The translations under genes were made by a program, and so were the position numbers. Below the pieces are notes generated by a model. It saw only the letters and a program-made list of their open reading frames with translations. It was not told the DNA's origin and made no database searches. This document shows positions 4,201 through 61,852 of a stretch of 64,000 nt of DNA, piece by piece (within the stretch, counting starts at the first letter, position 1; every line of letters begins with the position of its first letter). The stretch spans positions 1,426,001 through 1,490,000 of the forward strand of contig OZ037840.1 in the NCBI GenBank assembly GCA_964035575.1, given 5' to 3'. Origin of the DNA: Rhynchopus sp. YZ270_cl-10 (taxonomy: Eukaryota > Euglenozoa > Diplonemea > Diplonemida > Diplonemidae).

Positions 4201-4612
4201 ACCTTCCTGGGCGATTGTTTCATAACCATGGAGTTACATGAATAGAAGAAAGTTTGTACTGTCTGATGATGCTGTCTGAACCTCTTCTGTGTCACTAGCA
4301 CAGCGCACAGTAGGTCGAGTATTTGTGGCCATTGCTCAAAGGTGTGAAGGTTTGATGCTCCCATGGAAACCCCCTACCCTCTACTGCACAGTTGCACAGT
4401 AATGCGAGAGTACAACTGACTCGGAACAGCTTTGGAGTGGGCTTGCCTCCCGAGGTGTATGCACCTTCTGTGCTGCAATATAGGAACTATGTTCTGCTCC
4501 TCGTGTTCCCAGTGAGAACTGAATCACGCCGAGCTTGTTGACTGTCTGTGTGCTTGCACCCCACACTCACTCCAGATAAGCCATACACCCTTTGCAACAC
4601 ACTCTCCACACC
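1229..4612. other. Spacer of tandem unit, first copy; no gene seen
   Basis: This 3.4-kb spacer is rich in T and A homopolymers, for example near 1420, 1640, 2478, 3398 and 3600. Short open frames here are low-complexity Phe/Lys runs and are not credible genes. It contains several AAGTGACC words between 2550 and 2670 and one dispersed repeat at 2766-2953. It must include the promoter of the gene at 4613, but I see no convincing core element. Confidence 0.6.
2766..2953 (+). repeat. Dispersed repeat, 'TTGCGTACCG' family, copy 1
   Basis: About 188 bp with two internal copies of GAAATGTTGCGTACCG followed by TGRCTTCGCCAG. Matching copies lie at 7725-7912 (by tandem duplication) and 18205-18392 (dispersed, diverged). 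No coding capacity is seen. Confidence 0.75.
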
Positions 4613-6187
4613 ATGTATTCAGTTCTTGTGGCAGCCATGGCGCTGCACGCTGGTGTGCACAACCTCGACAATAGCAGTGGCATCGTGGACTGGCTTCTTC
4701 CCGGGCAAATTGCCGACACGGTCTGGACTGTTTCCTGTGACGGCACGTTTGTGGTGCAGTACTTGAACGACTTTGGTGGCGAGTTCATCATCAGCATCGA
4801 CGGGAAAGAGGAGTCACGTGTCAGTGGTGAGCACACGACACTGACGAAAACAAGCTTTTCAGCAAACACAACTGTGTCGATGACTGCGAGTGTGAAGTCG
4901 CATGGGAACAAGAAGGTTCTGTTCTCGTGGGCCTGTGACGCTATGCCTGCTGCTCTTCCATCAACACTGAACACTGCTGGGGATGTGAGCCACATGAAGT
5001 ACGGGCCAAGTGAGTTGGTGTACTGGACCCTGCAGTGCAAGGAACACGAAGACGTGCGCATCACCTGGACGTCTTTCAACATTGGCAACGACTCTCTGTG
5101 GATGAGGGCCCGGCCCACCTTCTTCAACGCGACAGGTTTGGACACTGTTGAGGACTTCACCTTCACTTCGACAGGATCCACCTACGTGTTCTTCAAAAGT
5201 GAGGCTGGCAGTGATGGTGGTGACTTTGCCTTCCGTTACGAGTGTCTGTCGAACGACATTGTACTGCCGAGCAGTGGCATCGTGGACAGGTTGCTTCCCG
5301 CAAAGATCGCTGACACCGTCTGGACTGTTTCTTGTCGCGGCATCTTTGTGGTGCAGTACTTGAACGACTTTGGTGGCGACTTCATCATCAGCATCGACGG
5401 GAATGAGAACTTACGTGTCAGTGGTGAGGACAGCAGAGTTACCAAACTGTACTTTCCAACACACGCAACTGCGTCGATGACTGCGAGTGTGAAGACTGGG
5501 AACAAGAAGGTGCTGTTCTCGTGGGCCTGTGACGCTATGCCTGCTGCTCTTCCATCAACACTGAACACTGCTGGGGATGTGAGCCACATGAAGTACGGGC
5601 CGAATGAGCTGGTGTACTGGGTTCTGCAGTGCAAGGAACACGAAGAAGTGAACATCACCTGGACGTCTTTCGACATTGGCAACGACTCTCTGTGGATGGT
5701 GCAGAGAGAGAGCGGAGTCTGGACCACCTTCTTCAACGCGTCTGGTTTGGACACTGTTGAGGACTTCACCTTCACTTCGGCAGGATCCACCTTCGTGGTG
5801 TTCACCAGTGAGGCTGGCAGTGATGGTGGTGACTTTGCCTTCCGTTACGAGTGTCTGTCCACACCTGCGCCTCCCACAGCAGAACCGCCGGCTACACCGA
5901 CAGGAGCACCAACAGCACTGCCGACAGCAGATCTTGACACAAAGGGAGCGTTTGCGTCTACTGATTCAGACGACGGAGGGCTCTCTGTGGGTGCCATTAT
6001 CGGTATCAGTGTCGGTGTGGGTCTTGTTGCGATTGCGGCTGTGGTGCTCGTGGTGTGCTATGTGGCAAGGAAGCAAACGACCAGAGCACCTAAATCCCCT
6101 AATGCATTCAACGAGTACAGCAAGGCGTATCCCTGTGCTCAGGGCAAAGAGCTCCCGGGGAGTTATGGCGAACAAAGCGTTGTGTAG
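4613..6187 (+). CDS. CUB-like four-module type I membrane protein (524 aa)
   Basis: The first in-frame ATG is 4613; the open frame extends upstream only without ATG. Residues 1-17 form a hydrophobic signal peptide. Two module pairs follow, about residues 20-211 and 220-415. The second pair repeats the first, sharing ADTVWTVSC, VVQYLNDFGG, LFSWACDAMPAALPSTLN and the closing SEAGSDGGDFAFRYEC. The two-Cys, beta-rich pattern with W, SF and F.YEC resembles CUB domains. A Pro/Thr/Ala stalk (about 416-455) leads to a Gly-rich transmembrane helix (about 459-484) and a 40-residue tail without a kinase or cyclase. Several N-glycosylation sequons (NDS, NAT, NTT, NIT) fit a secretory ectodomain. It probably binds a ligand or neighbouring cell at the plasma membrane. 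The same signal-peptide start heads the hybrid at 9572, so a cyclase-linked relative may have existed. Family call is moderate; topology is strong. Confidence 0.85.
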   Translation: MYSVLVAAMALHAGVHNLDNSSGIVDWLLPGQIADTVWTVSCDGTFVVQYLNDFGGEFIISIDGKEESRVSGEHTTLTKTSFSANTTVSMTASVKSHGNKKVLFSWACDAMPAALPSTLNTAGDVSHMKYGPSELVYWTLQCKEHEDVRITWTSFNIGNDSLWMRARPTFFNATGLDTVEDFTFTSTGSTYVFFKSEAGSDGGDFAFRYECLSNDIVLPSSGIVDRLLPAKIADTVWTVSCRGIFVVQYLNDFGGDFIISIDGNENLRVSGEDSRVTKLYFPTHATASMTASVKTGNKKVLFSWACDAMPAALPSTLNTAGDVSHMKYGPNELVYWVLQCKEHEEVNITWTSFDIGNDSLWMVQRESGVWTTFFNASGLDTVEDFTFTSAGSTFVVFTSEAGSDGGDFAFRYECLSTPAPPTAEPPATPTGAPTALPTADLDTKGAFASTDSDDGGLSVGAIIGISVGVGLVAIAAVVLVVCYVARKQTTRAPKSPNAFNEYSKAYPCAQGKELPGSYGEQSVV

Positions 6188-12863: not shown

Positions 12864-13250
12864 GTACTGTGTACTGTGTACTGTGTACTGTGTACTGTGT
12901 ACTGTGTACTGTGTACTGTGTACTGTGTACTGTGTACTGTGTACTGTGTACTGTGTACTGTGTACTGTGTACTGTGTACTGTGTACTGTGTACTGTGTAC
13001 TGTGTACTGTGTACTGTGTACTGTGTACTGTGTACTGTGTACTGTGTACTGTGTACTGTGTACTGTGTACTGTGTACTGTGTACTGTGTACTGTGTACTG
13101 TGTACTGTGTACTGTGTACTGTGTACTGTGTACTGTGTACTGTGTACTGTGTACTGTGTACTGTGTACTGTGTACTGTGTACTGTGTACTGTGTACTGTG
13201 TACTGTGTACTGTGTACTGTGTACTGTGTACTGTGTACTGTGTACTGTGT
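12864..13250. repeat. (GTACTGT)n satellite, about 55 units
   Basis: Perfect 7-bp tandem repeat, 387 bp, with no interruption seen. Same motif and orientation as the arrays at 24713-26845 and 40424-41512. Long open frames through it in every frame arise because the 21-bp supercycle contains no stop on either strand. Confidence 0.98.
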
Positions 13251-13806
13251 AAAAACCATAGGGGACCCTATGGATTTTTGGATTTTGAACTGAAAATTTT
13301 GGAGCATAAATTTGGAGAACAAAATTACTATGTCCGAGTTTGAGGCCCAAAAATTCCATTAAATGGTGCTCCAGGGGGGGCCGATATTGACAGGTCGCTG
13401 ACAGGTCGTTGCCATAGGGGAGGGTCATTTTTTAACGGCCCTTAGCGATTTTTTAGTGGGGCACACACACAGACACACAGTGGCCCATACGGACCCTCAG
13501 GGTACACGAAGTAACTTAGCGGTTCGGCAGGGGACATTAGTATGCCGGTGTGCCGGTGTGGGATTTTGAGAAAAAAAAAAAAAAAAAGAAAAAGGCAGAT
13601 TTTTGAATTTTTTTCTGAATTTTATCTCCTCATACAAGGCTACAACCACATCTGTAGCGGTTTCTTATGTGCATGTGACCCCACCACAAAGACCAATCGG
13701 TCCGTTCAATCAAAAGAAATAGATGTTTGCAACTCTCATAAAAAAGTAGCGTACCGTGCGCCTGCGGCGCAGCTAAAAATGACGAGCGGTAGCCCACAGC
13801 TCTACC
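13251..13806. other. Noncoding; short palindrome and diverged SINE-like repeat
   Basis: A palindrome of CCATAGGGGACCCTATGG lies at about 13256-13273. From about 13660 to 13800 there is a diverged copy of the SINE-like repeat seen at 30205, 40203 and 48043, recognisable by CATGTGACCCCACC, AATCAAAAGAAA and GCGCCTGCGGCGC. No gene seen. Confidence 0.5.
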
Positions 13807-14122
13807 CTACACTGTGGCTAGGGGTATGGGGATAGGTTCGCTGGGATAGCATATTTGGGGATAGCATATGCTATCCCCGAGGATAGGTTATGCTATCCCC
13901 CTGGGATAGGTTATTTCAGGATAACCTATCCCCCTGGGATAGCATTTGACTGTACTTTACTAAGGATCTGCGTGCTGGGGACACAAAAATTTAGTATCCC
14001 CACCCAGGTGCCCATTTGTCACCTTCCCACCCCTTAAAAAAATACAAAATAATGGGGGGATTCGGGTGCCCAAATAATCCTATGCACAAAAAATGAAGCG
14101 GGGGGGAAAAGGGATAAATAAT
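13807..14122 (+). repeat. Left terminal inverted repeat of the 3.84-kb element
   Basis: Pairs with 17327-17645. The outer 160 bp hold several GGATAGCAT/ATGCTATCC words in both orientations. The inner part is unique sequence ending in a G run. Confidence 0.9.
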
Positions 14123-14360
14123 TTTATTTCCCCCACCCAACAACAATGATAAAGCGTAACGACAACAAATAAAAGCAAATAGGAATTTGTGGTTTTTGTG
14201 AGGCACTCAACGAAGTGTGCCGGCTCTGTGGAGACACGGAGCCACCAGCACTCCCCAGTCTTTTTTCCGGAAGTACCTGGAAAACTCGCGGTTGCGACCA
14301 GGCAAACGAAAAAATTCAATTACACACCAAATGTGTGCGGGAGAAAATAGAAATGCAAAA

Positions 14361-14511
14361 AATTCCAGCTTCATCTGTGGGTGCGACGTTCTGCGGGCCT
14401 CCAGACATTAGGTGTTATAATTATTCTTGTTGCCACTCATCACCATCAGAATAACACCACAAAATGTCTGGAAGCCCGCAGAACGTCGCACCCACAGATG
14501 AAGCTGGAATT
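14361..14511 (+). promoter_or_regulatory. Long hairpin enclosing the start codon of the first element gene
   Basis: Bases 14361-14418 are the reverse complement of 14451-14511, with only a 2-3-nt bulge and one mismatch, around a 32-nt loop. ATG 14464 and the first 16 codons lie in the right arm. In RNA this would bury the start codon in a very stable stem. The left arm copies the coding sequence itself in reverse, so it arose by inverted duplication of the gene's 5' end. A role in translation control or small-RNA production is inference. Confidence 0.85.
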
Positions 14512-15333
14512 CCAAAACAAAAAGACCTCTTCGCAGACTTCTTCAAGCTGTACGTGCTTCCTGCACCCAAACACAGCATCCACGTGACGGACCTCAGGGA
14601 ACTGATCCGAAAGGTATTCCCCAAGCACTTCGGCAAACTTTCTGACGTAACGCCAACTGTCACATCCGCGATTAAGTCTGCACACAAGAAGGTCAAGGAT
14701 AACTTGACAAAAAATGAGCACGAAGCACTTATGGCAGATGGGAGCGATGCGTGGCTCTACCGGTCCAAGAACGGTGCCCCCTGTGTCCTCTATGGAATGG
14801 ATATTCGCAAGGAGCCAACCAACCACATGAAGACTACCTCCGCATACATCCACATTAGGAAGTATGCGTTGACATGTCTCCTTGACGACATGGACGTCAC
14901 CTTCGAGAAGATCAAACAGGAAAGGGAAGATGCGGAAGAGGCTGCAAAAGACAACAAGAAGACGACCACCAAGACGAATACCGAGTCGAAGACCAAGGTG
15001 AAGGCCGATACCAAGAGTGCGGTGGCTGCTTTCGTGTACCCGGGCCATGATATGGTTGGGTTCCCTGACCGCGTCGAGATCCGCTTCGACGCCCCGTTGA
15101 ATGAAAGGTACATGCAACTGGTCTCCGAAGAAGGAGACCCGAATGCGCCCTCTTTTGCGGGGCGCACGTTCAACATCGCCTGGAGGAGGTGCGTGGAAGG
15201 GGAGGTAGGGGCCGCCTCGCCCCCTTCCGGGTTGTACCGACGCCAGGTTTCCCTCCCCGAAGGGGACTATGCTCGCGATGCCATCACGGTATGCCACAGA
15301 GAAAGAATAAGAATAACACAATACCAAATATAA
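14464..15333 (+). CDS. Element protein 1, unknown function (289 aa)
   Basis: ATG 14464 opens 290 codons to TAA 15333. I do not recognise the family. Residues 1-150 look globular and mixed-charge, with ...WLYRSKNGAPCVLYG... near 97. Residues about 150-190 are a Lys/Glu/Thr-rich, probably coiled or disordered, linker. Residues 190-289 form a second, more compact part with PGHDMVGFPDRVEIRF. There is no signal peptide or transmembrane segment. Base composition is like the host genes nearby, unlike the T-rich spacers. The gene sits 340 bp inside the left terminal repeat and its start codon is in the long hairpin. A DNA-binding or accessory transposition protein is a guess from position only. Confidence 0.6.
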   Translation: MSGSPQNVAPTDEAGIPKQKDLFADFFKLYVLPAPKHSIHVTDLRELIRKVFPKHFGKLSDVTPTVTSAIKSAHKKVKDNLTKNEHEALMADGSDAWLYRSKNGAPCVLYGMDIRKEPTNHMKTTSAYIHIRKYALTCLLDDMDVTFEKIKQEREDAEEAAKDNKKTTTKTNTESKTKVKADTKSAVAAFVYPGHDMVGFPDRVEIRFDAPLNERYMQLVSEEGDPNAPSFAGRTFNIAWRRCVEGEVGAASPPSGLYRRQVSLPEGDYARDAITVCHRERIRITQYQI

Positions 15334-15503
15334 CCCAGATTGACTCCAACGACGAGAACAGGACCGTGGTGGTCATCCCCCGTGTCATATCCAGGGCCAA
15401 GATCTCCATTGGGGGAAAGAGGAAGAGGGAAGAGGACGGAAGCGGCTTGACGGTAAACCCCTCATCGAACCTCATCGAAGACACCACCAGTGGTGGAATG
15501 TAA
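15291..15503 (+). CDS. Small overlapping ORF with a basic nuclear-type motif (70 aa)
   Basis: ATG 15291 to TAA 15503 in a frame different from the gene it overlaps by 43 bp. The product is Asn/Ser-rich, followed by GGKRKREEDGSG, which looks like a nuclear localisation signal. Composition suggests real coding rather than chance. It could be a separate small protein or a C-terminal extension of protein 1 reached by splicing or frameshifting; the sequence does not decide. No family recognised. Confidence 0.4.
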   Translation: MPQRKNKNNTIPNITQIDSNDENRTVVVIPRVISRAKISIGGKRKREEDGSGLTVNPSSNLIEDTTSGGM

Positions 15504-15651
15504 AATTCACGGAGAAGAGAAAAACCTATCAAAAAAGTCTACCGCCATCAACAATATGCACCCCCTCCCCCCCCTTTTTTTTTGCAACCCACCCCACCCA
15601 CCCCACCCGAACAAGAAAAATTAAAACAGCTACAAATCAAACTACTGAACA

Positions 15652-17226
15652 ATGGATCCACAGCTTCTCGAAGCGATCCGCGAAGGCTTGGAAAAGGGCA
15701 GACTCCAGGCCCGTGTGTCTGAACACCAGGCAGCCCTCATGCAGAAAACTATGAATGCTGTGCTAAAAGAAAAAGGGTTCGCACCCCTCTCCCTCGGCCT
15801 TTCTCGCTATGCAGGCACGCACAAGAAGCGCCTTGCTGAAGAGGCCGGCCTCCTCCTGAACTCCCTCCCGAACATCTGCCTCGATCTCTTGGAGACGCTT
15901 CCGGATGGCTGCAGGCCAAGTTCCGTTACGGGGGTTCTCCTCAGGGATGATTACAATCCCCTGAATGCCTTCCGCAATGAAGGCAAGAGAACACGGCTCT
16001 GCGTCGCGCTGTACTTTGTGTGGGAGGGGGAGTTTTATTGCACAGAGCCAGTGACTGTTGCGGACAAGGGCCCTGTGGAGTACAAGAACTGGTACATGAA
16101 CGAGTTTCTAGCTCAGGTTGTTGATCTGAATCAGTTCCCACTGACCATGACTGACACCCATCAGGTGTTCGTCAGACTGGAGCGTGTTGGTGGTGACCAT
16201 CATGATTTGTGGTCGTATTTTTACAGGATGGGGGCGAAGGGACACCGCTCGGCTTTTTGCTCTACAGAGCGGTCATTCTCAGTCACACAGCTGCATACGT
16301 GCAAACGCCTTGACCTTCGTGAGCTCGACCAAGCAGGTTTTTACAACCAGCTGTGGGAACTAATGCTTCCTTATTCCTGCACCACGACCCCCACCCTGCA
16401 CGACACCAAAGGGGTTATCATAATACTATGCAACCTACTCGAGGCAGGGTTTTGCTCTCTCCCAGATGAATTACAAAGATCAAAAAAGGACACTGAACCG
16501 ATCAAGAGCCTGACAGGGAAGCAGGCGCATATTGCCCTGACCAACCTGTGCATGCAGGCAAAAGATGTTCAGCTCCAGATTGCGCTCTGTATGCAGGCAC
16601 TCTCGTACTTTAAGTACCAGAATATATCGTGCCACTTTCATGCAAACGGAAGCTGCAAAAAGGAGTTTCTTTTTTCTCTTGTTCTGTACCACGCACTCAT
16701 CTTTTCTCTTGAGTGGGTGGCTGCAGGGGTGACAATGGGGAAGGGATACACATATTTTCACAGCATGTCCCACTGGTTTGATCCAGAGGACGCTGTGCCT
16801 GTCTGGGCATCAGACGAAATGGGGGAGCAAGGGAACAGCACGAGAAAGCTCTCAGCTGGACGGGTTGGGTCGGGGAAACAGTTTGAGAGGGGACAACACC
16901 GCTTTGAATCGGCGAGGAAAAAAAGTTTCAAAAAAATACCCACTCCTTCGCAAAAAGAAGACGACGTACCGCGCATATTTGCCTACAGTTATTTAAAAAT
17001 TTGCAAGCGTTGTTTCACACGCAACAATACGTGGAGAACGAACTTGGATTATCTGGTGCAGCGAGTGAAGAGATGCGGATTCGACGGTCATGTGACGACT
17101 CAGGAGGGAACTAACGACATTTTGTTCAGTGCTGACTCTAATAACCATCAGTGCTTCAAACTGTGTGTGTGTGGCAAAAGAAAATGGGACATACCTTCAC
17201 GAGCTTCCGAATACATAAGTGAGTGA
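15652..17226 (+). CDS. Element protein 2, unknown function (524 aa)
   Basis: ATG 15652 to TGA 17226, 149 bp after the small ORF, with a C-rich leader between. The protein is mainly alpha-helical in appearance, rich in Cys and His (for example FHANGSCKKEF near 332 and KICKRCF near 452), and ends in a basic, Ser-rich region (about 398-440) plus a Cys-containing tail (KLCVCGKRKW). The paired Cys could bind zinc. I find no convincing DDE triad, RNase H fold pattern, helicase Walker motif or recombinase tyrosine motif. As the largest gene of a TIR-bounded element it is the best candidate for the mobilising enzyme, but that is inference from context. Confidence 0.6.
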   Translation: MDPQLLEAIREGLEKGRLQARVSEHQAALMQKTMNAVLKEKGFAPLSLGLSRYAGTHKKRLAEEAGLLLNSLPNICLDLLETLPDGCRPSSVTGVLLRDDYNPLNAFRNEGKRTRLCVALYFVWEGEFYCTEPVTVADKGPVEYKNWYMNEFLAQVVDLNQFPLTMTDTHQVFVRLERVGGDHHDLWSYFYRMGAKGHRSAFCSTERSFSVTQLHTCKRLDLRELDQAGFYNQLWELMLPYSCTTTPTLHDTKGVIIILCNLLEAGFCSLPDELQRSKKDTEPIKSLTGKQAHIALTNLCMQAKDVQLQIALCMQALSYFKYQNISCHFHANGSCKKEFLFSLVLYHALIFSLEWVAAGVTMGKGYTYFHSMSHWFDPEDAVPVWASDEMGEQGNSTRKLSAGRVGSGKQFERGQHRFESARKKSFKKIPTPSQKEDDVPRIFAYSYLKICKRCFTRNNTWRTNLDYLVQRVKRCGFDGHVTTQEGTNDILFSADSNNHQCFKLCVCGKRKWDIPSRASEYISE

Positions 17227-17326
17227 GGAGTTCCACAAATCTGCTTTTTTCCCTGTGTTACCTTTTGAACTTTTGTGTGATTTTTATTGTGTGAAATGCT
17301 TGTTTTTTTATCCGCATCCTTTTTTA

Positions 17327-17645
17327 TTTATTTATCCCTTCCCCCCCCCCGCTTCATTTTTTGTGCATAGGATTATTTGGGCACCCGAATCCCCCCATTA
17401 TTTTGTATTTTTTTAAGGGGTGGGAAGGTGACAAATGGGCACCTGGGTGGGGATACTAAATTTTTGTGTCCCCAGCACGCAGATCCTTAGTAAAGTACAG
17501 TCAAATGCTATCCCAGGGGGATAGGTTATCCTGAAATAACCTATCCCAGGGGGATAGCATAACCTATCCCCTGGGGGATGGCATATGCTATCCCCAAATA
17601 TGCTATCCCAGCGAACCTATCCCCATACCCCTAGCCACAGTGTAG
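17327..17645 (-). repeat. Right terminal inverted repeat of the 3.84-kb element
   Basis: Reverse complement of 13807-14122 with few mismatches. It begins in a C run and ends CCCCTAGCCACAGTGTAG at 17645. Confidence 0.9.
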
Positions 17646-19346: not shown

Positions 19347-22319
19347 ATGCACTCATGTGTGCCCGTGCTGCTGCTTGCACTGCTGTGTGGCGCTGACGCT
19401 GCCCTGAAGAAGCCGATCCGCCTGATCGGTGTCTTCGCCACGTCGCCGCCACTCGCACCGCACGACAAAAGCTGGAACCCTCTTGTGCCGTGCGAGCGCA
19501 TTGTGACTGAGGGTGACGACGACTGCTACAAGGGCGGCTTCCCTGGGGTGGCTGCGTGGATGGAGCACTATTCACAGGACGTGCGTGGGACCATCAAAGT
19601 GACATCGCCAGATTTCAAGTCCCGCATGATCTTTGGACATCCCCTTGGCCTGGATCTGAACTACGAGATCTGGGACAGGCTTGACATTGACTTCGTCACA
19701 TTGAGGGCAGAGCACTTGATGACGAAAGCCACAGACGCATCCGTTGTGGAGAACTTTGTTGCAAACATGAAACAGCCAATGATCATGACAGACCTCGCGA
19801 TCCTGGACAACTTTGTCTACCTTCTGGGCCTGCTGACCATGTGGCATGTGAAGGTGATTGACGGTGTGCAGATCGGTGTGATCGTGCTGTGGTCCGAGAC
19901 TTATCTCGGACGACGTGGTCAGTCCATTCCCCACGACAAGCTCATCCCCGTGGTGACGACAAGGCTGCGTGCCCAGGGTGTGGCACAGATCGTGGTGCTC
20001 CGCATTGGCCACGTGGGTGTGGAGGACGAGATGCAGCAACTGACGACGTACGACGTGGACGTGGTTCTAACGGACGTTGTTGCGGGGACAGACTTTGCTT
20101 CGAACGGGACGTCTGTTCTGTATGCAGCAGGCATTCAGGACGACAAGGCAACTGCATACCCAATCGTGACGTTGGACTTGACCGAAGAAGTGGACGGGTC
20201 GAAGTGGCACTACAGTGTAACAGAGGTGAGTGCACGTGACCTGCCTGTTCCTGTGACGGACGCACGCTTTGCAGCAAACCTTGCCTGGATGCAAGAGCAG
20301 ATTGTGCTGAGCCAGACAAACGACTACGTGGTTGCAACGTCGACAGCAGCGATGCCGTCCATCAATGAGGAAGGGTTCTACGACTGCCGTGGGGGTGACT
20401 GTGAGTTGGGCAAGATGACTGCAGATGCGATGCGTGAGTGGGCAGGGACGGACCTGGCAATGATAAATGGTGGTTCGCTGCGTGGTGTTGGGTGGGAGAA
20501 GGGTCCGATCAAGCGCAGCGCTTTGTGGGGCACGTACCCCTTTGCAAACCTGCTGTGCAAAGTGAACATGTCAGGCACTGTGCTGCTGGATTTCATGAAC
20601 CACGGAGTGAGTGCACTGCTTCCGGACGGAACACGAGACAAGACGAGCCGCCTTGGTCTGTACCCACAGATGAGTGGGATGCGGTTCACCATCAACCCCA
20701 GCCTCCCCGAACGTCGTGTTGTTTCGATCGATGTGCTCACACCCACAGGGGTGTACGAGCCACTGCAGAAGCGTAAGTTGTACTCCATTGTCCTTCCAGA
20801 GTTCATTGCAGGTGGTGGTGACGGGTACGGGATGCTTCCCACGAACCAGCACGACGGGTCGGAAGGCTGTGGTATCGACACTGCACTGGAGGTGACAGAG
20901 ACGTACCTGAAGGCTGCATCGATTTACACTCCGTCCTTGGGTGACAGAATGAGTCTCAACATGGCTGGGAGTGCACTGATGATGATGAACCAGACGAAGT
21001 ACAACTGCACAGAGAACCAGAAGTACGATCCACACTGGCAGCACTGCGAGGACTGCCCTGAAGGCTTCTGGCACCCAGACATGGACAGCCCTGCGTGTGT
21101 GGAGAAGCTTCCGAGTGAGGTGGACATCGGGATGATTCTTGGCATCGTGTTTGGTGGTCTTGTCCTGCTTGTGATCCCGATTGCGTGGAAGATGACAGAG
21201 AAGCAGCGCCGCATCAACGCGCTCTTCAACAACAACAAGATTGCAGAGGAGTGTGCCATTGCGGTTATGGACCTCCGTCTTGGCGACCTTGACTACCTCC
21301 ACGAGCTGGAGAAGCCGAACACGATTCAGTCTGCGTTTATTGCCATCACGAAGCAGATGAAGGTGTACATGGAGTTTATGCCCAAGAACCTGATTGCAAA
21401 CTACAAGGACACGAGCGACGATGGGAGCGAGACACGGTCCACATGCAAGCCCCGCTCTGATGCACTGTCGTCTCGCCGCTCGAGTGCCGCGACGTCACGC
21501 TCTGGTCTGCGGCGAATGGCTGATTCTTCGTCGAGGTTTTCGTCCGAGATGCAGATGCAGCAGAGACGTGTGCGTGCCACGTTTGCGAAGCGCAGACGCC
21601 TGTCTGTGCTGTACCTGAACAGCAAGGGCCACACCGCACTCTGCACAGCAGACAACGCCGTCAGCATCCACTCCTACTTCATCGAAACCTTCAACAGAGT
21701 TGTGGAGACCAACAAAGGCCTTGCGGAGCCTATGTGCGGCGACCGTGTCGTGGCGGTGTGGAACACTGTCGTGGACCGTTCGAACCACGCAATCTTTGCG
21801 TGCAAGGCCGCACGCGACTTGGCGACGTTTTCCGAGAGGGGCATTGTGCCGCAGATCGGTGTGGCCTCGGGGCCGTCGCTGTTTGGGCTGTTTGGGGGTA
21901 CCGGGACGAAGAAGTACGACATCATTGGGAAGACGTTGAACGCGGCTTCTATTCTGATGCTGCTGAACAAGGAGTACGACACGAAGGTGCTTGTCACCAA
22001 GCAGGTGGCACTGGAGGCCTCTGTCACGTTCTACCTCAAGATTGTCGACCACGTCAACTACACGAAACTCCCCGATACTTTCCTCTACTCACTTGAATCA
22101 GAGCGCAGTTCAGGACAACACGACGAGTGGATGTACGAGATGGAGCAGTCCGAAGGCTGTGACCCCTTCGCGGCCAACAACCACAACTGGATTGAATTTA
22201 TCAAAAAGGGTGTCGTTACTGGTGATGCATCTGGTCTGAGCGGCATCCTGCTTGAGCTCAGAAAACGGAACTACTCTGGTGAATACCACGCACGCTGTGC
22301 GTCGTTGGACCTCGTGTAA
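19347..22319 (+). CDS. Receptor protein: 5'-nucleotidase-like ectodomain, TM helix, class III cyclase domain (990 aa)
   Basis: ATG 19347 starts a signal peptide (residues 1-19). Residues about 25-320 match the calcineurin-like half of 5'-nucleotidases only in outline: the DxH, GD, GNHE and GHxH metal motifs are not present. Residues about 325-530 match the 5'-nucleotidase C-terminal domain well (NGGSLRG at 374, YPFANLLCKVNMSG, AGGGDGYGMLP at 488). A short Cys-rich stretch (552-584) precedes one transmembrane helix (593-616). After a conserved helical linker and a Ser/Arg-rich insert (690-748) comes a class III cyclase domain (about 751-905). D799 keeps one metal ligand, but the other is N758. 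KKYDIIG carries the Asp typical of adenylate cyclases and N865 is kept, while the transition-state Arg position is I869. The protein probably senses a nucleotide or other ligand outside and signals inside, perhaps as a partner subunit rather than an enzyme. Intronless. Its tail is paralogous to 9769-10263. Confidence 0.88.
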   Translation: MHSCVPVLLLALLCGADAALKKPIRLIGVFATSPPLAPHDKSWNPLVPCERIVTEGDDDCYKGGFPGVAAWMEHYSQDVRGTIKVTSPDFKSRMIFGHPLGLDLNYEIWDRLDIDFVTLRAEHLMTKATDASVVENFVANMKQPMIMTDLAILDNFVYLLGLLTMWHVKVIDGVQIGVIVLWSETYLGRRGQSIPHDKLIPVVTTRLRAQGVAQIVVLRIGHVGVEDEMQQLTTYDVDVVLTDVVAGTDFASNGTSVLYAAGIQDDKATAYPIVTLDLTEEVDGSKWHYSVTEVSARDLPVPVTDARFAANLAWMQEQIVLSQTNDYVVATSTAAMPSINEEGFYDCRGGDCELGKMTADAMREWAGTDLAMINGGSLRGVGWEKGPIKRSALWGTYPFANLLCKVNMSGTVLLDFMNHGVSALLPDGTRDKTSRLGLYPQMSGMRFTINPSLPERRVVSIDVLTPTGVYEPLQKRKLYSIVLPEFIAGGGDGYGMLPTNQHDGSEGCGIDTALEVTETYLKAASIYTPSLGDRMSLNMAGSALMMMNQTKYNCTENQKYDPHWQHCEDCPEGFWHPDMDSPACVEKLPSEVDIGMILGIVFGGLVLLVIPIAWKMTEKQRRINALFNNNKIAEECAIAVMDLRLGDLDYLHELEKPNTIQSAFIAITKQMKVYMEFMPKNLIANYKDTSDDGSETRSTCKPRSDALSSRRSSAATSRSGLRRMADSSSRFSSEMQMQQRRVRATFAKRRRLSVLYLNSKGHTALCTADNAVSIHSYFIETFNRVVETNKGLAEPMCGDRVVAVWNTVVDRSNHAIFACKAARDLATFSERGIVPQIGVASGPSLFGLFGGTGTKKYDIIGKTLNAASILMLLNKEYDTKVLVTKQVALEASVTFYLKIVDHVNYTKLPDTFLYSLESERSSGQHDEWMYEMEQSEGCDPFAANNHNWIEFIKKGVVTGDASGLSGILLELRKRNYSGEYHARCASLDLV

Positions 22320-24684: not shown

Positions 24685-24712
24685 GTCGAAAAATCAGAAA
24701 AAAACTATTTTT

Positions 24713-26845
24713 GTACTGTGTACTGTGTACTGTGTACTGTGTACTGTGTACTGTGTACTGTGTACTGTGTACTGTGTACTGTGTACTGTGTACTGTGTAC
24801 TGTGTACTGTGTACTGTGTACTGTGTACTGTGTACTGTGTACTGTGTACTGTGTACTGTGTACTGTGTACTGTGTACTGTGTACTGTGTACTGTGTACTG
24901 TGTACTGTGTACTGTGTACTGTGTACTGTGTACTGTGTACTGTGTACTGTGTACTGTGTACTGTGTACTGTGTACTGTGTACTGTGTACTGTGTACTGTG
25001 TACTGTGTACTGTGTACTGTGTACTGTGTACTGTGTACTGTGTACTGTGTACTGTGTACTGTGTACTGTGTACTGTGTACTGTGTACTGTGTACTGTGTA
25101 CTGTGTACTGTGTACTGTGTACTGTGTACTGTGTACTGTGTACTGTGTACTGTGTACTGTGTACTGTGTACTGTGTACTGTGTACTGTGTACTGTGTACT
25201 GTGTACTGTGTACTGTGTACTGTGTACTGTGTACTGTGTACTGTGTACTGTGTACTGTGTACTGTGTACTGTGTACTGTGTACTGTGTACTGTGTACTGT
25301 GTACTGTGTACTGTGTACTGTGTACTGTGTACTGTGTACTGTGTACTGTGTACTGTGTACTGTGTACTGTGTACTGTGTACTGTGTACTGTGTACTGTGT
25401 ACTGTGTACTGTGTACTGTGTACTGTGTACTGTGTACTGTGTACTGTGTACTGTGTACTGTGTACTGTGTACTGTGTACTGTGTACTGTGTACTGTGTAC
25501 TGTGTACTGTGTACTGTGTACTGTGTACTGTGTACTGTGTACTGTGTACTGTGTACTGTGTACTGTGTACTGTGTACTGTGTACTGTGTACTGTGTACTG
25601 TGTACTGTGTACTGTGTACTGTGTACTGTGTACTGTGTACTGTGTACTGTGTACTGTGTACTGTGTACTGTGTACTGTGTACTGTGTACTGTGTACTGTG
25701 TACTGTGTACTGTGTACTGTGTACTGTGTACTGTGTACTGTGTACTGTGTACTGTGTACTGTGTACTGTGTACTGTGTACTGTGTACTGTGTACTGTGTA
25801 CTGTGTACTGTGTACTGTGTACTGTGTACTGTGTACTGTGTACTGTGTACTGTGTACTGTGTACTGTGTACTGTGTACTGTGTACTGTGTACTGTGTACT
25901 GTGTACTGTGTACTGTGTACTGTGTACTGTGTACTGTGTACTGTGTACTGTGTACTGTGTACTGTGTACTGTGTACTGTGTACTGTGTACTGTGTACTGT
26001 GTACTGTGTACTGTGTACTGTGTACTGTGTACTGTGTACTGTGTACTGTGTACTGTGTACTGTGTACTGTGTACTGTGTACTGTGTACTGTGTACTGTGT
26101 ACTGTGTACTGTGTACTGTGTACTGTGTACTGTGTACTGTGTACTGTGTACTGTGTACTGTGTACTGTGTACTGTGTACTGTGTACTGTGTACTGTGTAC
26201 TGTGTACTGTGTACTGTGTACTGTGTACTGTGTACTGTGTACTGTGTACTGTGTACTGTGTACTGTGTACTGTGTACTGTGTACTGTGTACTGTGTACTG
26301 TGTACTGTGTACTGTGTACTGTGTACTGTGTACTGTGTACTGTGTACTGTGTACTGTGTACTGTGTACTGTGTACTGTGTACTGTGTACTGTGTACTGTG
26401 TACTGTGTACTGTGTACTGTGTACTGTGTACTGTGTACTGTGTACTGTGTACTGTGTACTGTGTACTGTGTACTGTGTACTGTGTACTGTGTACTGTGTA
26501 CTGTGTACTGTGTACTGTGTACTGTGTACTGTGTACTGTGTACTGTGTACTGTGTACTGTGTACTGTGTACTGTGTACTGTGTACTGTGTACTGTGTACT
26601 GTGTACTGTGTACTGTGTACTGTGTACTGTGTACTGTGTACTGTGTACTGTGTACTGTGTACTGTGTACTGTGTACTGTGTACTGTGTACTGTGTACTGT
26701 GTACTGTGTACTGTGTACTGTGTACTGTGTACTGTGTACTGTGTACTGTGTACTGTGTACTGTGTACTGTGTACTGTGTACTGTGTACTGTGTACTGTGT
26801 ACTGTGTACTGTGTACTGTGTACTGTGTACTGTGTACTGTGTACT
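24713..26845. repeat. (GTACTGT)n satellite, about 305 units
   Basis: 2,133 bp of uninterrupted 7-bp repeat, the longest array in the window. Same motif and strand as at 12864 and 40424. No variant unit was seen on reading, which suggests recent expansion or array homogenisation; assembled length may be unreliable. Confidence 0.98.
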
Positions 26846-40202: not shown

Positions 40203-40427
40203 TGGACACACATGTGACCCCAGCGTGGAGAGCAATCGGCTCGCGCAATCAAAAGAAAGCAGAAAAAAAGGGAAAGAAAAAAGAAAAAAGTTGGGTACCG
40301 TGCGCCTGCGGCGCTACCTGTTCCCTACCCCCCCCCCATGATGTACTTATGTATATTCCACCTGATTTTGACCATGTTTGCCGGTGTTTTCCGGTGTTGG
40401 CCGGTGAAGTCACGGTAATGGGCACTG
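40203..40427 (+). repeat. SINE-like dispersed repeat, copy at 40.2 kb
   Basis: Same family and orientation as 30205-30430. Here the end GTGAAGTCACGGTAATGGGC leads straight into a (GTACTGT)n array; in the 30.2-kb copy the same place reads TTGGGTACTGGGTACACTC. Confidence 0.8.
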
Positions 40428-41512
40428 TGTACTGTGTACTGTGTACTGTGTACTGTGTACTGTGTACTGTGTACTGTGTACTGTGTACTGTGTACTGTGT
40501 ACTGTGTACTGTGTACTGTGTACTGTGTACTGTGTACTGTGTACTGTGTACTGTGTACTGTGTACTGTGTACTGTGTACTGTGTACTGTGTACTGTGTAC
40601 TGTGTACTGTGTACTGTGTACTGTGTACTGTGTACTGTGTACTGTGTACTGTGTACTGTGTACTGTGTACTGTGTACTGTGTACTGTGTACTGTGTACTG
40701 TGTACTGTGTACTGTGTACTGTGTACTGTGTACTGTGTACTGTGTACTGTGTACTGTGTACTGTGTACTGTGTACTGTGTACTGTGTACTGTGTACTGTG
40801 TACTGTGTACTGTGTACTGTGTACTGTGTACTGTGTACTGTGTACTGTGTACTGTGTACTGTGTACTGTGTACTGTGTACTGTGTACTGTGTACTGTGTA
40901 CTGTGTACTGTGTACTGTGTACTGTGTACTGTGTACTGTGTACTGTGTACTGTGTACTGTGTACTGTGTACTGTGTACTGTGTACTGTGTACTGTGTACT
41001 GTGTACTGTGTACTGTGTACTGTGTACTGTGTACTGTGTACTGTGTACTGTGTACTGTGTACTGTGTACTGTGTACTGTGTACTGTGTACTGTGTACTGT
41101 GTACTGTGTACTGTGTACTGTGTACTGTGTACTGTGTACTGTGTACTGTGTACTGTGTACTGTGTACTGTGTACTGTGTACTGTGTACTGTGTACTGTGT
41201 ACTGTGTACTGTGTACTGTGTACTGTGTACTGTGTACTGTGTACTGTGTACTGTGTACTGTGTACTGTGTACTGTGTACTGTGTACTGTGTACTGTGTAC
41301 TGTGTACTGTGTACTGTGTACTGTGTACTGTGTACTGTGTACTGTGTACTGTGTACTGTGTACTGTGTACTGTGTACTGTGTACTGTGTACTGTGTACTG
41401 TGTACTGTGTACTGTGTACTGTGTACTGTGTACTGTGTACTGTGTACTGTGTACTGTGTACTGTGTACTGTGTACTGTGTACTGTGTACTGTGTACTGTG
41501 TACTGTGTACTG
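40424..41512. repeat. (GTACTGT)n satellite, about 155 units
   Basis: 1,089 bp of perfect 7-bp repeat in the same strand sense as the two other arrays. The last unit changes to ACTGGGTG. Confidence 0.98.
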
Positions 41513-42035: not shown

Positions 42036-42416
42036 CATACCTAGACCCTCGAATTTTTTTTTTTGCCCCTATATTGGGCTAATTTCGACGATTTGAGGCC
42101 ATTAAAAGCAAAATTTGGCACTTTTGAGCATCTGTGGGGGTCTAAAACGCGGTTCCGCGAACCCAAAATTTCGTGATTTTTACCAAAAACAAGTCGATTT
42201 TTGAAAAAATCTCAAAAAAAAAAATCCCAAATTTTTTTTTTCACAAGTGTTTTTGAGGCCTGCTCACTACACCCTAGGTCCCCTTCTGGGACCAAAAAGT
42301 CAAAAAAAGCAAGAATTGGGCTGTTTTGAGCATCTAGAGTTAATTCCCCAGTCATTTTCTGTACCACCAGTGCATTTAGTATGGGCCAGCGCCTTGTCAA
42401 AAAATCAAAAAATCTC
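42036..42416 (+). repeat. Repeat X, left piece, split by the LINE
   Basis: Host repeat, also inverted at 49206-49572. Its last 316 bp (42101-42416) are duplicated at 46310-46625 on the far side of the LINE, apparently without change. Confidence 0.9.
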
Positions 42417-45400
42417 TGACCACCTCAAGCAACTGGTGGAGGTGGAGGATGCTTTGGTGATGCAGCACCTCACGCACGTTGTGGACATCCTGAGGAGGGG
42501 CGAGGCGTGCCCGTCGGTGGCTCCGTTCTTTGCTGGTGCACGGCTGACTGCGCTCCCGAAGAAGTCTGGTGGTGTCCGCCCCATTGCAGTGGAGGAGACC
42601 TTGCGCCGTCTCACGGGGAAGTCTCTGGCTCGCGAGGTGAAAGATGCTGCGCGTGCGACCCTTCTCCCTGGGAACCAGGTGGGTGTGGCTGTTGACGGTG
42701 GCCTGGAAGCTGCGACCGCTGCAATCTGCGATTACTCGAAGCGCAATGCCGGTAAGGATCGCGTGCTGCTAAAGATTGACTTTGCGAATGCGTTCAACTC
42801 TGTGCACAGAGGGGCTTTCATGCAACCAGTAGCTACACACCTCCCTGGCTTGCTCCCTTTTGTTCAGTGGTGCTACGGTGTCGAATCTCTCCTGATCTTC
42901 GGAGATGTGGAGCTGTCGTCGATGTGTGGTGCACAGCAGGGTGATCCGCTAGGGCCGCTGCTTTTCTCCCTGGCCATCAAACAGGTCACAGAGACGATGA
43001 AGCAACAGGAGGGGGTGGATCTCTCTGTCTGGTACCTTGATGACGGCACAATCGGTGGATCGCCACAGGGTGTCAGTCTGGCTTTTCAGACACTCATCCG
43101 CATTTCCGGGGAAATGGGCCTCGCAGTCAAACTCCCGAAGTGTGAACTGATACCGCTCTCGGAGAGTCAGACAGACGAGTTCCTGGTCGCCGTTGGTTTC
43201 GACGTGTCCGGCCTCAAGGTCATCCGAAATGGTTTTGAGTTCTTGGGGGCCCCTATTGGGAACGATGAATTCTGCGAAGGATTCATGCAGGCCAAAGTGG
43301 CGGAGTTCGCCCACAACCTCCGTCTTCTGGGGAAGGTGCGTGATCCGCAGCTGGCTCTGACCCTCCTCCGTCACTGTGAAGGGTTCTGTCGCATCGTGTT
43401 CCACATGCGCGCCATTGGCCACCGCTGCTCGCATGGGTACCTGACTGGTTACGATGATGAGGTGGACAAGGTGCTCGCCAGCATCCTGGGGGATCCCGAC
43501 GGCCACTTGCCTCCTGCGGCCCGCCTGCAAGCTGCCCTCCCTGTGAACCAAGGTGGGCTCGGGGTACGTCGAGCACGCGACCACTGGCTGGCCGCCGCTC
43601 TTGGCTCTTCGAGCGCCCATCTCGGTACCTGCCTGGCGTTGGACCCCGCGTTCAATTGGGACGCCGATGGCTGGCGATCCTCCGCCTCGCAGTACAACTC
43701 ACTTGTTGCGGAGGACGACCCTGTGGACCCGTCCGAGAGGCCCTGCCGTGCCATCCCGCAACGTGACTTGTCTGCAGCCATCGTCGATGTGCAGCGCCGC
43801 TCCCTCATGGATGGAGCCGATACGATGGATAGGGCCAGGCTCCTGTCCCTCTCCTTGCCGGGCACTGGTGCCTGGGTTACCGCTCTACCTGAGCCCGCCA
43901 ACCGCATTGCCCCGGAGGCCTACACTGCTGCTTTGCGCCTCAGGCTTGGAGTCCCGCTCTACTCCGCGTCTACGAAGTGCGACAAATGTGGTGTGAAGAT
44001 GGACGCCATGGGTGTGCACGTGCTGAACTGTCCGCGAGGGGGGTGCCGTATCCAGCGCCACAATGCTACGAGGGACACCCTGGGAGCTCTTTGCTCTGAT
44101 GCTGGGCTCGCTCCTTCCTTGGAACCGCTTCACATTGTGCTTGGTAACCAGAAACCTGCGGACGTTTTCCTGCCTATGGGGATCGGGGAGAGGCGTGGTA
44201 GGTGCTTGGATGTGAGTGTGGTGAATCCGTCGTCACAGTGCTACCTCGAAGGGTCGTCCAAGGCCAAAGGGTACGCCGCATCCAAGGGTCAGATCCAGAA
44301 GCGTGGCAAGCACCAGGACGCCTGCGAGACAGCCCGCGTCGCCTTCACCCCCTTCATCATGGAAGTACACGGGGGCCTGGGTGACGAAGCGGCCGTCGTG
44401 TGGAAGCAGTTGTGCCGGGTTGCGAGTGACAGGAGGGGTGGGAACTACGCCAAACACTCCATGCTCTGGGGTCAGCGCCTCGGTGTCAGTCTCATGCGGG
44501 AGGTAGGTAAGGCCCTGGCGAGCCGTGGCACCCTATGCCTCGACATTGGTGGAGAGCTTCGCCAGCGTCGGCCTCTGGCGGCCCCTACGCCGTGTGTGCC
44601 AGGGGAGTACTACGCCCGTGACCAGCGCGTCGTAGATCCGTACGTGGCCCCATGCACCGATGAGCTCCTCCTCAGACTCGAGGCAGAGGATCCGGCGGTA
44701 CCCGACCTGATGGACGTCCAGAGGCTCAACGACGAGCTGGCTGCGAGGGTCGAGCTGGAAGAGTGGATGGCCCGCCGTGACACTGAACACGCCCTGCATG
44801 CCGCCCTACCCCTGCAGCACCCCGACAACCTGACATGTCCGGTGGACACGGTGGACACCCTGCAGTCCATGATTGCCGATGATGCTGACACCTTTGAGAG
44901 AGATCATCAGCTCTTCATCCTGCAGGCCACCACCCCCCCGGACTTCACCTTCACTGTTGGGGACAGCGCTTTCGATGCGTTTGCTTTGGCCACAGCCGGT
45001 GTGTTGGCTTCTGGTGAACTCCGCAACAGGGCCGTCCGCCAGGTGACCGTGAACAGAGACCTGGCTGAGCGGACCAGGCCCTCCCTCCTACAGTGGGCTA
45101 CCCTCAAGCTTCTCCAGGGCAATGCGGATGTCCGGTCCTGGCCCGACCCCATCCTCCTCGAGGGTCTGGCGCGGGCCACAGGGGTAGCTATCCTCTGCAT
45201 CATCGGGGGTCAGAAGCCCACAGTGCTGTTGCCACTCTGCAGGTCCAGGGACGTAGTCGGCCTGGCGCACAGTGGAGAGGATCACGCTCCTTTTGTCCCG
45301 ATCGCCCTGCCTGAGGCCATCCGCCAGCACGTCCTGGCGCTTCCCCCACCGCCGACTCCTCCTACCGCCTTCTGCCACTCCACCGCTCTCATGAGTGGCA

Positions 45401-46309
45401 AGCTGGCCGACCGCCACAACATTAAGGTAGGGACCTGCGAGTCGTGCCAGCGCTGCTGCTCAGGCGCTGACACCCACTGGGAGTGCCTGTCGTGTGGGTC
45501 TTGGGCGTGCACTGTATGCTTCCCCTCGGTGCCCTTGTGCCCTCGCGTCCAGGGGCCCCTCTCCTCCTACCGTGCGCACCGCAATTCCGACCGTGCCCAA
45601 ACCCTCACCATCCCCATTTCCTCGACCCAGACTCAGCAGACGGGAGGCTCCTTCACAGCCAACACAGCCCCCGCTGCCGAGCCTTCCGTCGCCGCCCCCG
45701 CCCCGACACCGACTTCGACACCGATTCCCCCGACTGGTGGCTCTTCTGCAGCTCACCCGGACCCCGATGCCGTCCCCGACCTCACTCCTCCCACCGTAGC
45801 CGCCTGGTACCAGCGGTACCACCCCATCAACGGTTGCACTCCCTTGACTCCCCCGGCTGCGCTGTCCGCCTTCCAAGCTTGGTGTAACTGCCGCCCCATG
45901 CCGGAAGTGGACCGCGCCCCGTCCGCCCGTCTTCTCGCAGAGCTGCAGGACCTCCTGCCGACCGCGGCGTAGACCTGACCAATTCCCCCCTTTTTTCCTC
46001 CCCTCCCTCCTTCCCCCCCTTCTTCCCTTTCTTCTTTTTTGGCTATTTTTATTTCGTTCATAGCCTAGATTCGGACCTGATTTCAGGCCGACCGTGTACA
46101 GCCGGGTAGAGCCAGACAACGTCTACAGCTGTGGCCCAAGGAGGTCCCCAGTGTCGTCAGCCAATCCCCTTAACCCAACAAAAGACTACAAATTAAAAAA
46201 CAATCTAGAAAAAAAAAAAAAAAAGTAAAAGAATGCCCTTCCTCAGTCCGGAAGTATCACCTCAACCGGTTACCTGCCGTAAAAGCGAGTGAGGTTACAG
46301 AGAGATCAA
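42417..46309 (+). mobile_element. 5'-truncated non-LTR retrotransposon (LINE) with REL endonuclease
   Basis: The insert lies between two 316-bp direct repeats (42101-42416, 46310-46625), which are best read as an unusually long target-site duplication. It starts only about 45 codons before the first RT motif, so N-terminal DNA-binding domains are missing, as expected from incomplete reverse transcription. The 3' part includes a 337-bp untranslated region with an internal A run at 46208 and ends near GGTTACAGAGAGATCA. An open frame throughout and identical flanks indicate a young insertion. Confidence 0.88.
42418..45972 (+). CDS. LINE polyprotein, partial: RT, zinc knuckle, REL endonuclease, OTU-like domain, zinc finger
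   Basis: The frame continues open upstream into repeat X, but the LINE part starts at 42418. RT motifs in order: LTALPKKSGGVRPIAV, LLKIDFANAFNSVH (catalytic Asp), GAQQGDPLGPLLF, VWYLDDG (catalytic Asp pair, about 43039) and FLGAPIG. A CCHC cluster (C..C, then H....C, 43978-44032) precedes GRCLDVSVVNPS and ...FTPFIMEVHGG, the pattern of the restriction-like endonuclease of R2-type LINEs. At about 44850-45310 the sequence resembles an OTU cysteine protease (GDSAFDAFALAT, then WPDPILLEGLA, then HAPFVPI), but the position of the catalytic Cys appears to be Phe. A ZZ-like finger (C..C, W.C..C, C..C, 45437-45537) and a Pro/Thr tail follow. It nicks target DNA and copies its RNA there by target-primed reverse transcription. 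Lacks its N terminus. Confidence 0.85.
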   Translation, partial: DHLKQLVEVEDALVMQHLTHVVDILRRGEACPSVAPFFAGARLTALPKKSGGVRPIAVEETLRRLTGKSLAREVKDAARATLLPGNQVGVAVDGGLEAATAAICDYSKRNAGKDRVLLKIDFANAFNSVHRGAFMQPVATHLPGLLPFVQWCYGVESLLIFGDVELSSMCGAQQGDPLGPLLFSLAIKQVTETMKQQEGVDLSVWYLDDGTIGGSPQGVSLAFQTLIRISGEMGLAVKLPKCELIPLSESQTDEFLVAVGFDVSGLKVIRNGFEFLGAPIGNDEFCEGFMQAKVAEFAHNLRLLGKVRDPQLALTLLRHCEGFCRIVFHMRAIGHRCSHGYLTGYDDEVDKVLASILGDPDGHLPPAARLQAALPVNQGGLGVRRARDHWLAAALGSSSAHLGTCLALDPAFNWDADGWRSSASQYNSLVAEDDPVDPSERPCRAIPQRDLSAAIVDVQRRSLMDGADTMDRARLLSLSLPGTGAWVTALPEPANRIAPEAYTAALRLRLGVPLYSASTKCDKCGVKMDAMGVHVLNCPRGGCRIQRHNATRDTLGALCSDAGLAPSLEPLHIVLGNQKPADVFLPMGIGERRGRCLDVSVVNPSSQCYLEGSSKAKGYAASKGQIQKRGKHQDACETARVAFTPFIMEVHGGLGDEAAVVWKQLCRVASDRRGGNYAKHSMLWGQRLGVSLMREVGKALASRGTLCLDIGGELRQRRPLAAPTPCVPGEYYARDQRVVDPYVAPCTDELLLRLEAEDPAVPDLMDVQRLNDELAARVELEEWMARRDTEHALHAALPLQHPDNLTCPVDTVDTLQSMIADDADTFERDHQLFILQATTPPDFTFTVGDSAFDAFALATAGVLASGELRNRAVRQVTVNRDLAERTRPSLLQWATLKLLQGNADVRSWPDPILLEGLARATGVAILCIIGGQKPTVLLPLCRSRDVVGLAHSGEDHAPFVPIALPEAIRQHVLALPPPPTPPTAFCHSTALMSGKLADRHNIKVGTCESCQRCCSGADTHWECLSCGSWACTVCFPSVPLCPRVQGPLSSYRAHRNSDRAQTLTIPISSTQTQQTGGSFTANTAPAAEPSVAAPAPTPTSTPIPPTGGSSAAHPDPDAVPDLTPPTVAAWYQRYHPINGCTPLTPPAALSAFQAWCNCRPMPEVDRAPSARLLAELQDLLPTAA

Positions 46310-46959: not shown

Positions 46960-47830
46960 GTATTTATTACGTCGACAGGCCAAACAACGTTGGGCTCAGA
47001 AGAAGCAGTGCTAGACAGTCACTGGGGATCAACATGAGAACCAACTCCCAACAACACAGGCTACCGAAGTAGCAGGTGGGGTGTTGCGGGTGTTTGGGGT
47101 GAAAGAAAATTGATTTTGGTAAGTTCCAGCAGAAAATTCTTAAGTTTGCAATAGCGAGAAGGGTTACACTGCTCTTGCGAGCTGTGAACCGGTAAGGTTG
47201 AGAAGGGTGACACGGCATACAAGTACAAGTACAAGTAAGACGTACCTTCTGCAAAGGCTGAATTCGCAATTCTAAGGGATATGAATTCAGCCCCCACATG
47301 TTTTTTTGAGATTATCATTCCATGGTATACTACGCGTTCCCGAAGAATGAATCACCCCCTCCTCGTTCATGCAAACTTAAGAAAATTCTGAAGTAACTAC
47401 AACCTGGCGTGCGGGTGCAGATGCATTGCTTTGTTCTTTCCTCAAAGTCATGTGTGATCTCTCGGGTCTGTACTAAAGTCAGTGTTTAGATAAGCATCCA
47501 CTTGACTCGTTCTAACAACCGTTGAAATCTAGAACAAAACAATACACTGCCCCTTCTCACACCAAGCCGCCATGCTTCAAGAGCATGCCCTGGGCAAAAA
47601 TTACTGTGACAAAAATTAGTTTTCTGGGGGAACGCAATATTTTCTTGTGCCTAGTCCTCCGCAAGCAGAGGACAGACTTTCCGGATCCCGAAGTCGAATT
47701 TCTTGCACTAGCTATGCTCCCTGGGTTAATGGCTATAGCAGTGACTGACAGAGTGTTCCCACTCCCCTTTCCACCCCATATGTTCGCTCGTTCTGCACAG
47801 TTGGTTCTCGATGTTGCACTCGCGATACCT
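46960..47830. repeat. Repeat T, copy 1 (gene relic-like)
   Basis: Two blocks, about 46970-47110 and 47565-47770, are inverted at 61250-61350 and 60655-60890. Conserved segments such as CTATGCTCCCTGGGTTAATG and frames like RTDFP, LALAMLPGLMAIAVTD suggest a decayed gene. The protein family is not recognised. The sequence between 46811 and 46960 and between the blocks shows no gene. Confidence 0.7.
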
Positions 47831-48325: not shown

Positions 48326-48764
48326 CACAAAACTGCCACGGAAGCATGCAAGGCTCTATCCGCGCAAAATGTGGAAGCGTTCTGGGAGCAGTGGCGAACC
48401 CGCTAAACGTACAAGAACATTATAAAAAACTGAGAACTAACATCGCCGTATCCCCCCTAATGACACCTACCATCAACGAGGCATGTGAAATCAATGTAGT
48501 TGTCTCCCTTCTGCTTGCCCCGCTCCCATGGTAGCGATTTTTTTCCAACATTTTTTCCCCAACTAATATTTTTTTCCGTACGTACGTACAGAATTTCAAA
48601 ACGTCTCGGACAAGAAACAAATAAATTTATTTATCTACCCTTATGGAGACTTTTTGGAGGAAATACGAGTCGACGGCCTTATTTTGTTGAATATTCACCA
48701 GAAAGTTAAACATATTTACATACCTTGTCTTGCGCCTTCGCTGCTGTCAAGGTGCCTTCTCTGG

Positions 48765-61350: not shown

Positions 61351-61852
61351 TGTCTGCGGCGTTGTACTTCAGGTGCACGAAGACAGGGTCTGGTGGTAAA
61401 TTTTGCGTAGTACTGCGACGTGGTACTGCGTGGGTCTGGGAACCTGGGTACCTGGGTACAGGAAATTTGTTGTGGAAGACATCAACCACCATGTATTGAG
61501 GAGGGTAAGACAGTGTTCGCAGTTTCTACCTGATAGCATTACACATTTAACTTCTCCACGGGGGTCTTGGGCCGTTCACTCGGTTCTACCTTGACTACCG
61601 GAAGATATTCTTGAGGCCTTTTTGGTCTCTAGAATATCCGGTCTTCCCGAACGGAGGCACACTTTGTGTGTTACTACGACCTGGCAATTTCCAGCAGTAG
61701 GTTAAGTAATCTTTCTTGTAAATTGTTGGATCATTATCTCCTCAGTGCATGAATGCCCCACGTGACTGGACACTTTTGTGTTTGTCATGTGGAGCTGTGG
61801 TTGCTCTTTCACGACTTTTTTCCTGTTCCTGGGTACCTGGACCTGGACCTCT

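Follow-up and report, generated by a model that had tools for sequence, protein, structure and literature searches.

We describe a transposon in a window of 64,000 nucleotides (the whole stretch analysed, positions 1,426,001 to 1,490,000 of contig OZ037840.1 of Rhynchopus sp. YZ270_cl-10). It is a genuine, mobile and young element that carries two genes, here called ORF1 and ORF2 (ORF, open reading frame). The evidence is best explained by a recently active, two-protein class II (cut-and-paste) transposon whose ORF2 probably encodes a strongly diverged Asp-Asp-Glu (DDE) transposase of the CMCT (CACTA-Mirage-Chapaev-Transib) type. RAG1 itself descends from a transposase of this group. If the assignment is true, a lineage from a different eukaryote that keeps the motif order but differs in its zinc site, staggers its cuts by 2 bp and has a dedicated second protein would show which parts of the RAG and CACTA systems are needed and which can be replaced.

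Ends, target duplications and copies of the element

The original prediction, made from the letters of the window alone, had described a unit with near-perfect terminal inverted repeats, two plus-strand genes and a small overlapping one, all of which are found in the window (Table 1). The inverted repeats are real, with arms of 77 nt (13806-13882/17570-17646, 97%) and 232 nt (13875-14106/17344-17575, 99%), but the boundaries assumed at that time (13807-17645) have to be moved inwards to those common to 28 copies: the wider unit included the palindromic TA duplication as well as one flanking base per side that pairs by chance. In the host genome (152 Mb, 126 contigs, with the window located in contig C8), the 300-bp end recurs at 86-100% identity in all 40 scored places (of 70 candidates); therefore the inverted repeats are not a product of chance. 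Both ends were placed in 27 of the 28 near-identical loci that were fetched (L019-L046), resulting, together with the window, in 28 bounded copies at 26 independent sites (L040 and L046 are merged with L036 as one site, and L045 has no ends in the fetched stretch). An exact 2-bp duplication flanks the element at 25 of the 26 sites, and a 3-bp match at none. The duplicated dinucleotides are TA (17 sites), TG (3), CA (2), CG, TT and AA (1 each).

Empty sites were identified for four copies. The flanks of L026 meet at window positions 48692-48693 (100% over 53 and 94 bp) and those of L030 at 61492-61493 (90 and 95%); L039 has empty sites at window positions 47709-47710 and at 4571-4572 of L052, and L044 at 133-134 of L058. 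The dinucleotide is present once in every one of them. The window itself therewith holds three unoccupied counterparts of sites at which other copies have inserted. Many copies with the same ends, 2-bp target duplications and clean empty sites bear out the transposon nature that had been proposed, and with 28 bounded copies the element is not the only one with these ends.

Matches to ORF1 are found in 35 rows of the genome search, 11 of them of full length. ORF2 matches comprise 82 rows: 10 full-length and near-identical, 16 partial at 98-99% identity and 56 divergent at 27-42%. The ten copies with an intact ORF2 differ pairwise by 0 to 0.54% (mean 0.17%, 45 pairs). Both ORFs are whole in nine of the near-identical copies, and the family is therefore a candidate live system for reconstitution. 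One deletion junction (element positions 1057|2654) is common to 11 loci at nine independent sites, hence the defective copy was itself moved, presumably by proteins acting in trans.

Palindromic subterminal arrays are contained in the terminal repeats: 20 of the 21 GGGATA/TATCCC words of the element fall inside the terminal repeats, whose length differs among copies by steps of approximately 23 bp (300, 323 and 346 bp). A hairpin over the start of ORF1 is kept in all 28 loci L019-L046. It is possible that this hairpin serves self-regulation or is a source of small RNAs.

Table 1. Parts of the transposon, with positions counted in the window
Feature	Positions	Strand	Basis or remarks
Complete transposon	13810..17642	+	3,833 bp, 5'-CACTGTGGCT...AGCCACAGTG-3'; termini common to 28 bounded copies
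Left 2-bp target duplication (TA)	13808..13809		flank comparison of copies
Right 2-bp target duplication (TA)	17643..17644		flank comparison of copies
Left terminal inverted repeat	13810..14106	+	repeat arms and genome matches
Right terminal inverted repeat	17344..17642	-	repeat arms and genome matches
GGGATAG/CTATCCC palindromic subterminal array, left repeat	13843..13945	+	word count, tandem units
GGGATAG/CTATCCC palindromic subterminal array, right repeat	17505..17611	-	arms, tandem units, word count
Hairpin, 62-nt inverted repeat (90%)	14361..14511		right arm contains start and first codons of ORF1
ORF1, 289 aa, conserved partner protein	14464..15333	+	full-length genome matches
Small overlapping ORF, 104 aa	15189..15503	+	possibly second ORF1 exon after a 50-nt GT-AG stretch
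ORF2, 524 aa, proposed DDE transposase	15652..17226	+	intact genome copies and relatives; D99, D182, C203, H250, H370, H374, E392

Two genes and their relatives in the same genome

The element belongs to a wider group. Ten divergent ORF2 loci were fetched, followed later by two extensions and one more copy. Ends were located for five of the ten (L049, L050, L051, L053 and L055) as well as for the additional copy L064, and were not located for L052, L054, L056, L057 and L058. The six copies thus bounded represent four related families, all of which start with CAC and have 2-bp duplications: family C56 + C4 (ends CACGGTGCGG, duplications TA and TT), family C89 (CACGGTGGCC, TA), family C3 + C20 (CACGACGGAC, TA and CA) and family C99 (CACGGCGGGG, TA). 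An ORF1-like frame accompanies ORF2 in nine of the ten divergent loci, the exception being L056; the gene order is reversed in the C56 + C4 family. At position 4618 of L048, a diverged end (CACTGTGGACAGGG) is preceded by TA, with a short ORF1-like match nearby, and is perhaps an old relative.

By profile comparison, ORF1 is homologous to the ORF1 of other families in the genome. The window protein scores 50 bits against a profile built from the ORF1-like frames of seven relatives (L049, with a broken frame, and the window as the query are left out), compared to 1.4 bits for the best of 20 shuffles. In the Pfam scan, none of the three ORFs (289, 524 and 104 aa) was assigned to a family and ORF1 obtained no function; ORF1 resembles nothing found. 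The three matches to ORF1 in the protein database are all near-identical to the window family or its deletion products. By analogy with CACTA elements, we propose that ORF1 binds the subterminal GGGATAG array in the manner of TNPA. If the 50 nt at 15289-15338, which begin with GT and end with AG, were spliced out, ORF1 would continue in the frame of the 104-aa ORF. The relatives' profile gives 2.8 bits for the joined and 2.6 bits for the unjoined form, and an equal or higher score was reached by 41 of 200 shuffled tails; a role of the 104-aa ORF as second ORF1 exon is unproved.

ORF2 was aligned with eight relatives that are 21-31% identical to it (L050, a near-copy of L049, is left out). Residues D99, D182, C203, H215, H250, H370, H374, D388, E389 and E392 are invariant in 8 of 8 sequences. 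Among these, D99, D182 and E392 are the candidates for a DDE triad: the two aspartates are 83 residues apart and each is preceded by a hydrophobic stretch, and D182 is separated from E392 by 210 residues, among them H370xxxH374. The longer relatives have C-terminal C2H2-type fingers (a Di19-type Pfam model matches 7 of 9, best E-value 1.7e-6; CTCF fingers 3.9e-5), which are missing from the ORF2 of the window. At the N-terminus of the family only a very weak helix-turn-helix match is found (HTH_3 at 0.052 in one member, C.BclI at 0.89).

Relationship to known transposases

CMCT transposases have a C(2)C as well as an H(3-4)H motif between the second D and the last E, and their elements have 5'-CA..TG-3' ends and target duplications of 2-5 bp (PMC12730594). 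The CAC..GTG termini and the 2-bp duplication of the window element agree with this description, as does the H(3)H motif, which is present in all eight sequences. Animal and fungal CACTA elements are reported to have two D residues approximately 80 apart and a D-x-L/M-H-x3-L-G motif, and 7 of 14 copies are flanked by direct repeats of 2 bp (PMC1636069). The D-D spacing near 80 and the H-x-G motif are shared with ORF2. CACTA (En/Spm) elements also share CAC-starting ends, subterminal repeat arrays (bound by TNPA in the CACTA case), two proteins, and deletion derivatives (PMC1636069, PMC2613891). In contrast, the window element has inverted repeats of 300 bp where those of CACTA are short, a 2-bp duplication where that of plant CACTA elements is 3 bp, no match to PF02992 (Transposase_21) in any of the nine ORF2 family members, no C(2)C, and an ORF1 for which nothing similar was found.

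The order of motifs also corresponds to that of Transib and RAG1. Mouse RAG1 has, in sequence, D600, D708, C727/C730, 'ALHCDIG', H937-x4-H942 and 'WASEGNE962SGN', among which are the residues that we take to be catalytic; ORF2 has 'TLHDTKG', H-x3-H and 'WASDEMGE392QGN' as counterparts. The common order is D..D..C..LH.x.G..H(3-4)H..WAS..E.GN, and by eye it is E392, rather than E389, that lines up with RAG1 E962. RAG1 C730, however, has no counterpart in ORF2, the profile comparison is not significant, and Transib elements duplicate 5 bp. Mirage elements duplicate 2 bp, like the window element, but the Mirage Pfam model is absent from the matches of the ORF2 family. Of the ESTA and Plavaka lineages of the CMCT clade, ESTA shares the TA duplication and PlavakaA the 2-bp duplication; both lineages are fungal, and Plavaka ends are given as TGT.. 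or CATCA.. (PMC12730594). A TET/JBP gene is not seen in the window element. PF18759 (Plavaka) is not among the Pfam matches of the nine ORF2 family members. Genome-wide searches for PF02992 and PF18759 were uninformative, as the controls gave no signal either.

Several results weigh against a CMCT assignment. No transposase model of Pfam matches ORF2 or its eight relatives at E <= 10 (9 of 9 without a match), and none matches the relatives' consensus. Two profile searches against the PDB found neither RAG1 nor Transib, a further PDB search was likewise negative, and hhalign against one mouse RAG1 sequence gave P 0.25 with the wrong region aligned. The single-sequence structure model is unusable (predicted local distance difference test 34.2, predicted template modelling score 0.24). 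In none of the eight sequences is there a cysteine three residues after C203, as C(2)C demands, and the flanks of copy L031 do not match (TA/CA). In favour of the assignment, random shuffling of the invariant columns gave the D-D-C-H(3-4)H-E order 39 times in 100,000, a figure that is too favourable because the spacing limits were set after the alignment and RAG1 had been seen. Owing to the negative Pfam, PDB and hhalign results and the unusable structure, ORF2 is not filed as a member of CMCT, although it most likely works like a CMCT transposase. The original statement that the proteins belong to no recognised family holds for Pfam, and no profile match to a catalogued transposase has emerged to overturn it; the statement that a usual transposase signature is missing does not survive the alignment, in which D..D..C..H(3)H..E is invariant. 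Of the two possibilities left by the prediction, a highly diverged superfamily member is the better match because this pattern resembles the CMCT group; in view of the missing profile or structural link, a new superfamily is unproved but keeps some probability.

A separate superfamily, with DDE or other nuclease chemistry outside CMCT and a motif order reached by convergence, would account for the missing profile link to any catalogued transposase, for the lack of C(2)C and for the recovery of near-identical proteins only among the scored candidates. We nevertheless consider it unlikely, since the motif order, H(3)H, the CAC..GTG ends and the 2-bp duplication all fit CMCT. Two-gene elements occur in Harbinger, and the flanks are TA/TA at 17 of 26 sites, which would suit another TA-duplicating group of the Tc1/mariner or PHISTA/Harbinger type. 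Such groups were rejected and seem very improbable: 8 of the 25 exact duplications are not TA (TG, CA, CG, TT, AA) where Tc1/mariner has a strict TA target, the gap of 210 residues between D182 and E392 contains H(3)H, and no Pfam match is found. The element might instead be a non-autonomous passenger that carries ORF1 and ORF2 as cargo while the enzyme is encoded elsewhere. No enzyme is proved and deleted family copies do spread, but relatives of both genes accompany each other even in elements whose termini are quite unlike in sequence, and the invariant acidic and His residues persist at 21-31% identity, so that we give this reading hardly any credence either.

Within the preferred assignment to a diverged CMCT-type enzyme, ORF2 would have an RNase H-like fold in which D99, D182 and E392 carry out catalysis, while C203, H215 (or C217), H370 and H374 may bind zinc. 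ORF1 would bind the GGGATAG-type arrays of the terminal repeats and, like TNPA in En/Spm, take part in bringing the ends together. Both proteins jointly would cut at the 5'-CAC..GTG-3' ends, with insertion following a 2-bp stagger at preferred TA targets, and would also move the internally deleted copies in trans. More tentatively, and with a smaller though real chance of being correct, we suggest an undescribed two-protein DDE lineage, ranking as a superfamily or nearly so and of common ancestry with CACTA and Transib/RAG1, in which C(2)C is replaced by C-x11-H-x-C, ORF1 is required together with ORF2, and diversification within one genome has given rise to several families. A description of this lineage was not found in the open-licence literature, searched without the host name.

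Other searches and further features of the window

The protein database returned three matches to ORF2, all near-identical to the window family or its deletion products; as only 7,997 and 7,996 candidates were scored, this does not show that relatives are absent elsewhere. No relatives were found in viral contigs or prokaryote contigs. EnSpm seeds in viral contigs, obtained with a peptide motif, led to two loci that resemble phage genes rather than CACTA.

The window harbors several further features. An ORF of 878 aa at 56884-59520 (minus strand) has a hAT dimerisation domain (PF05699, 3.2e-5), and one of 1,241 aa at 42247-45972 (plus strand) a reverse transcriptase domain (PF00078, 6.9e-14). 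In the 990-aa ORF at 19347-22319 (plus strand), a 5'-nucleotidase C-terminal domain (1.4e-29) is accompanied by a nucleotide cyclase match that is weak and below the cut-off. The regions 26-1228 and 4592-6187 constitute a direct gene duplication with a weak CUB match, and a 44-bp repeat at 1518 is found again at 6477. Heptamers of the ACTGTGT/GTACTGT type form perfect arrays of up to 305 units at 12864-13251, 24712-26845 and 40424-41512.

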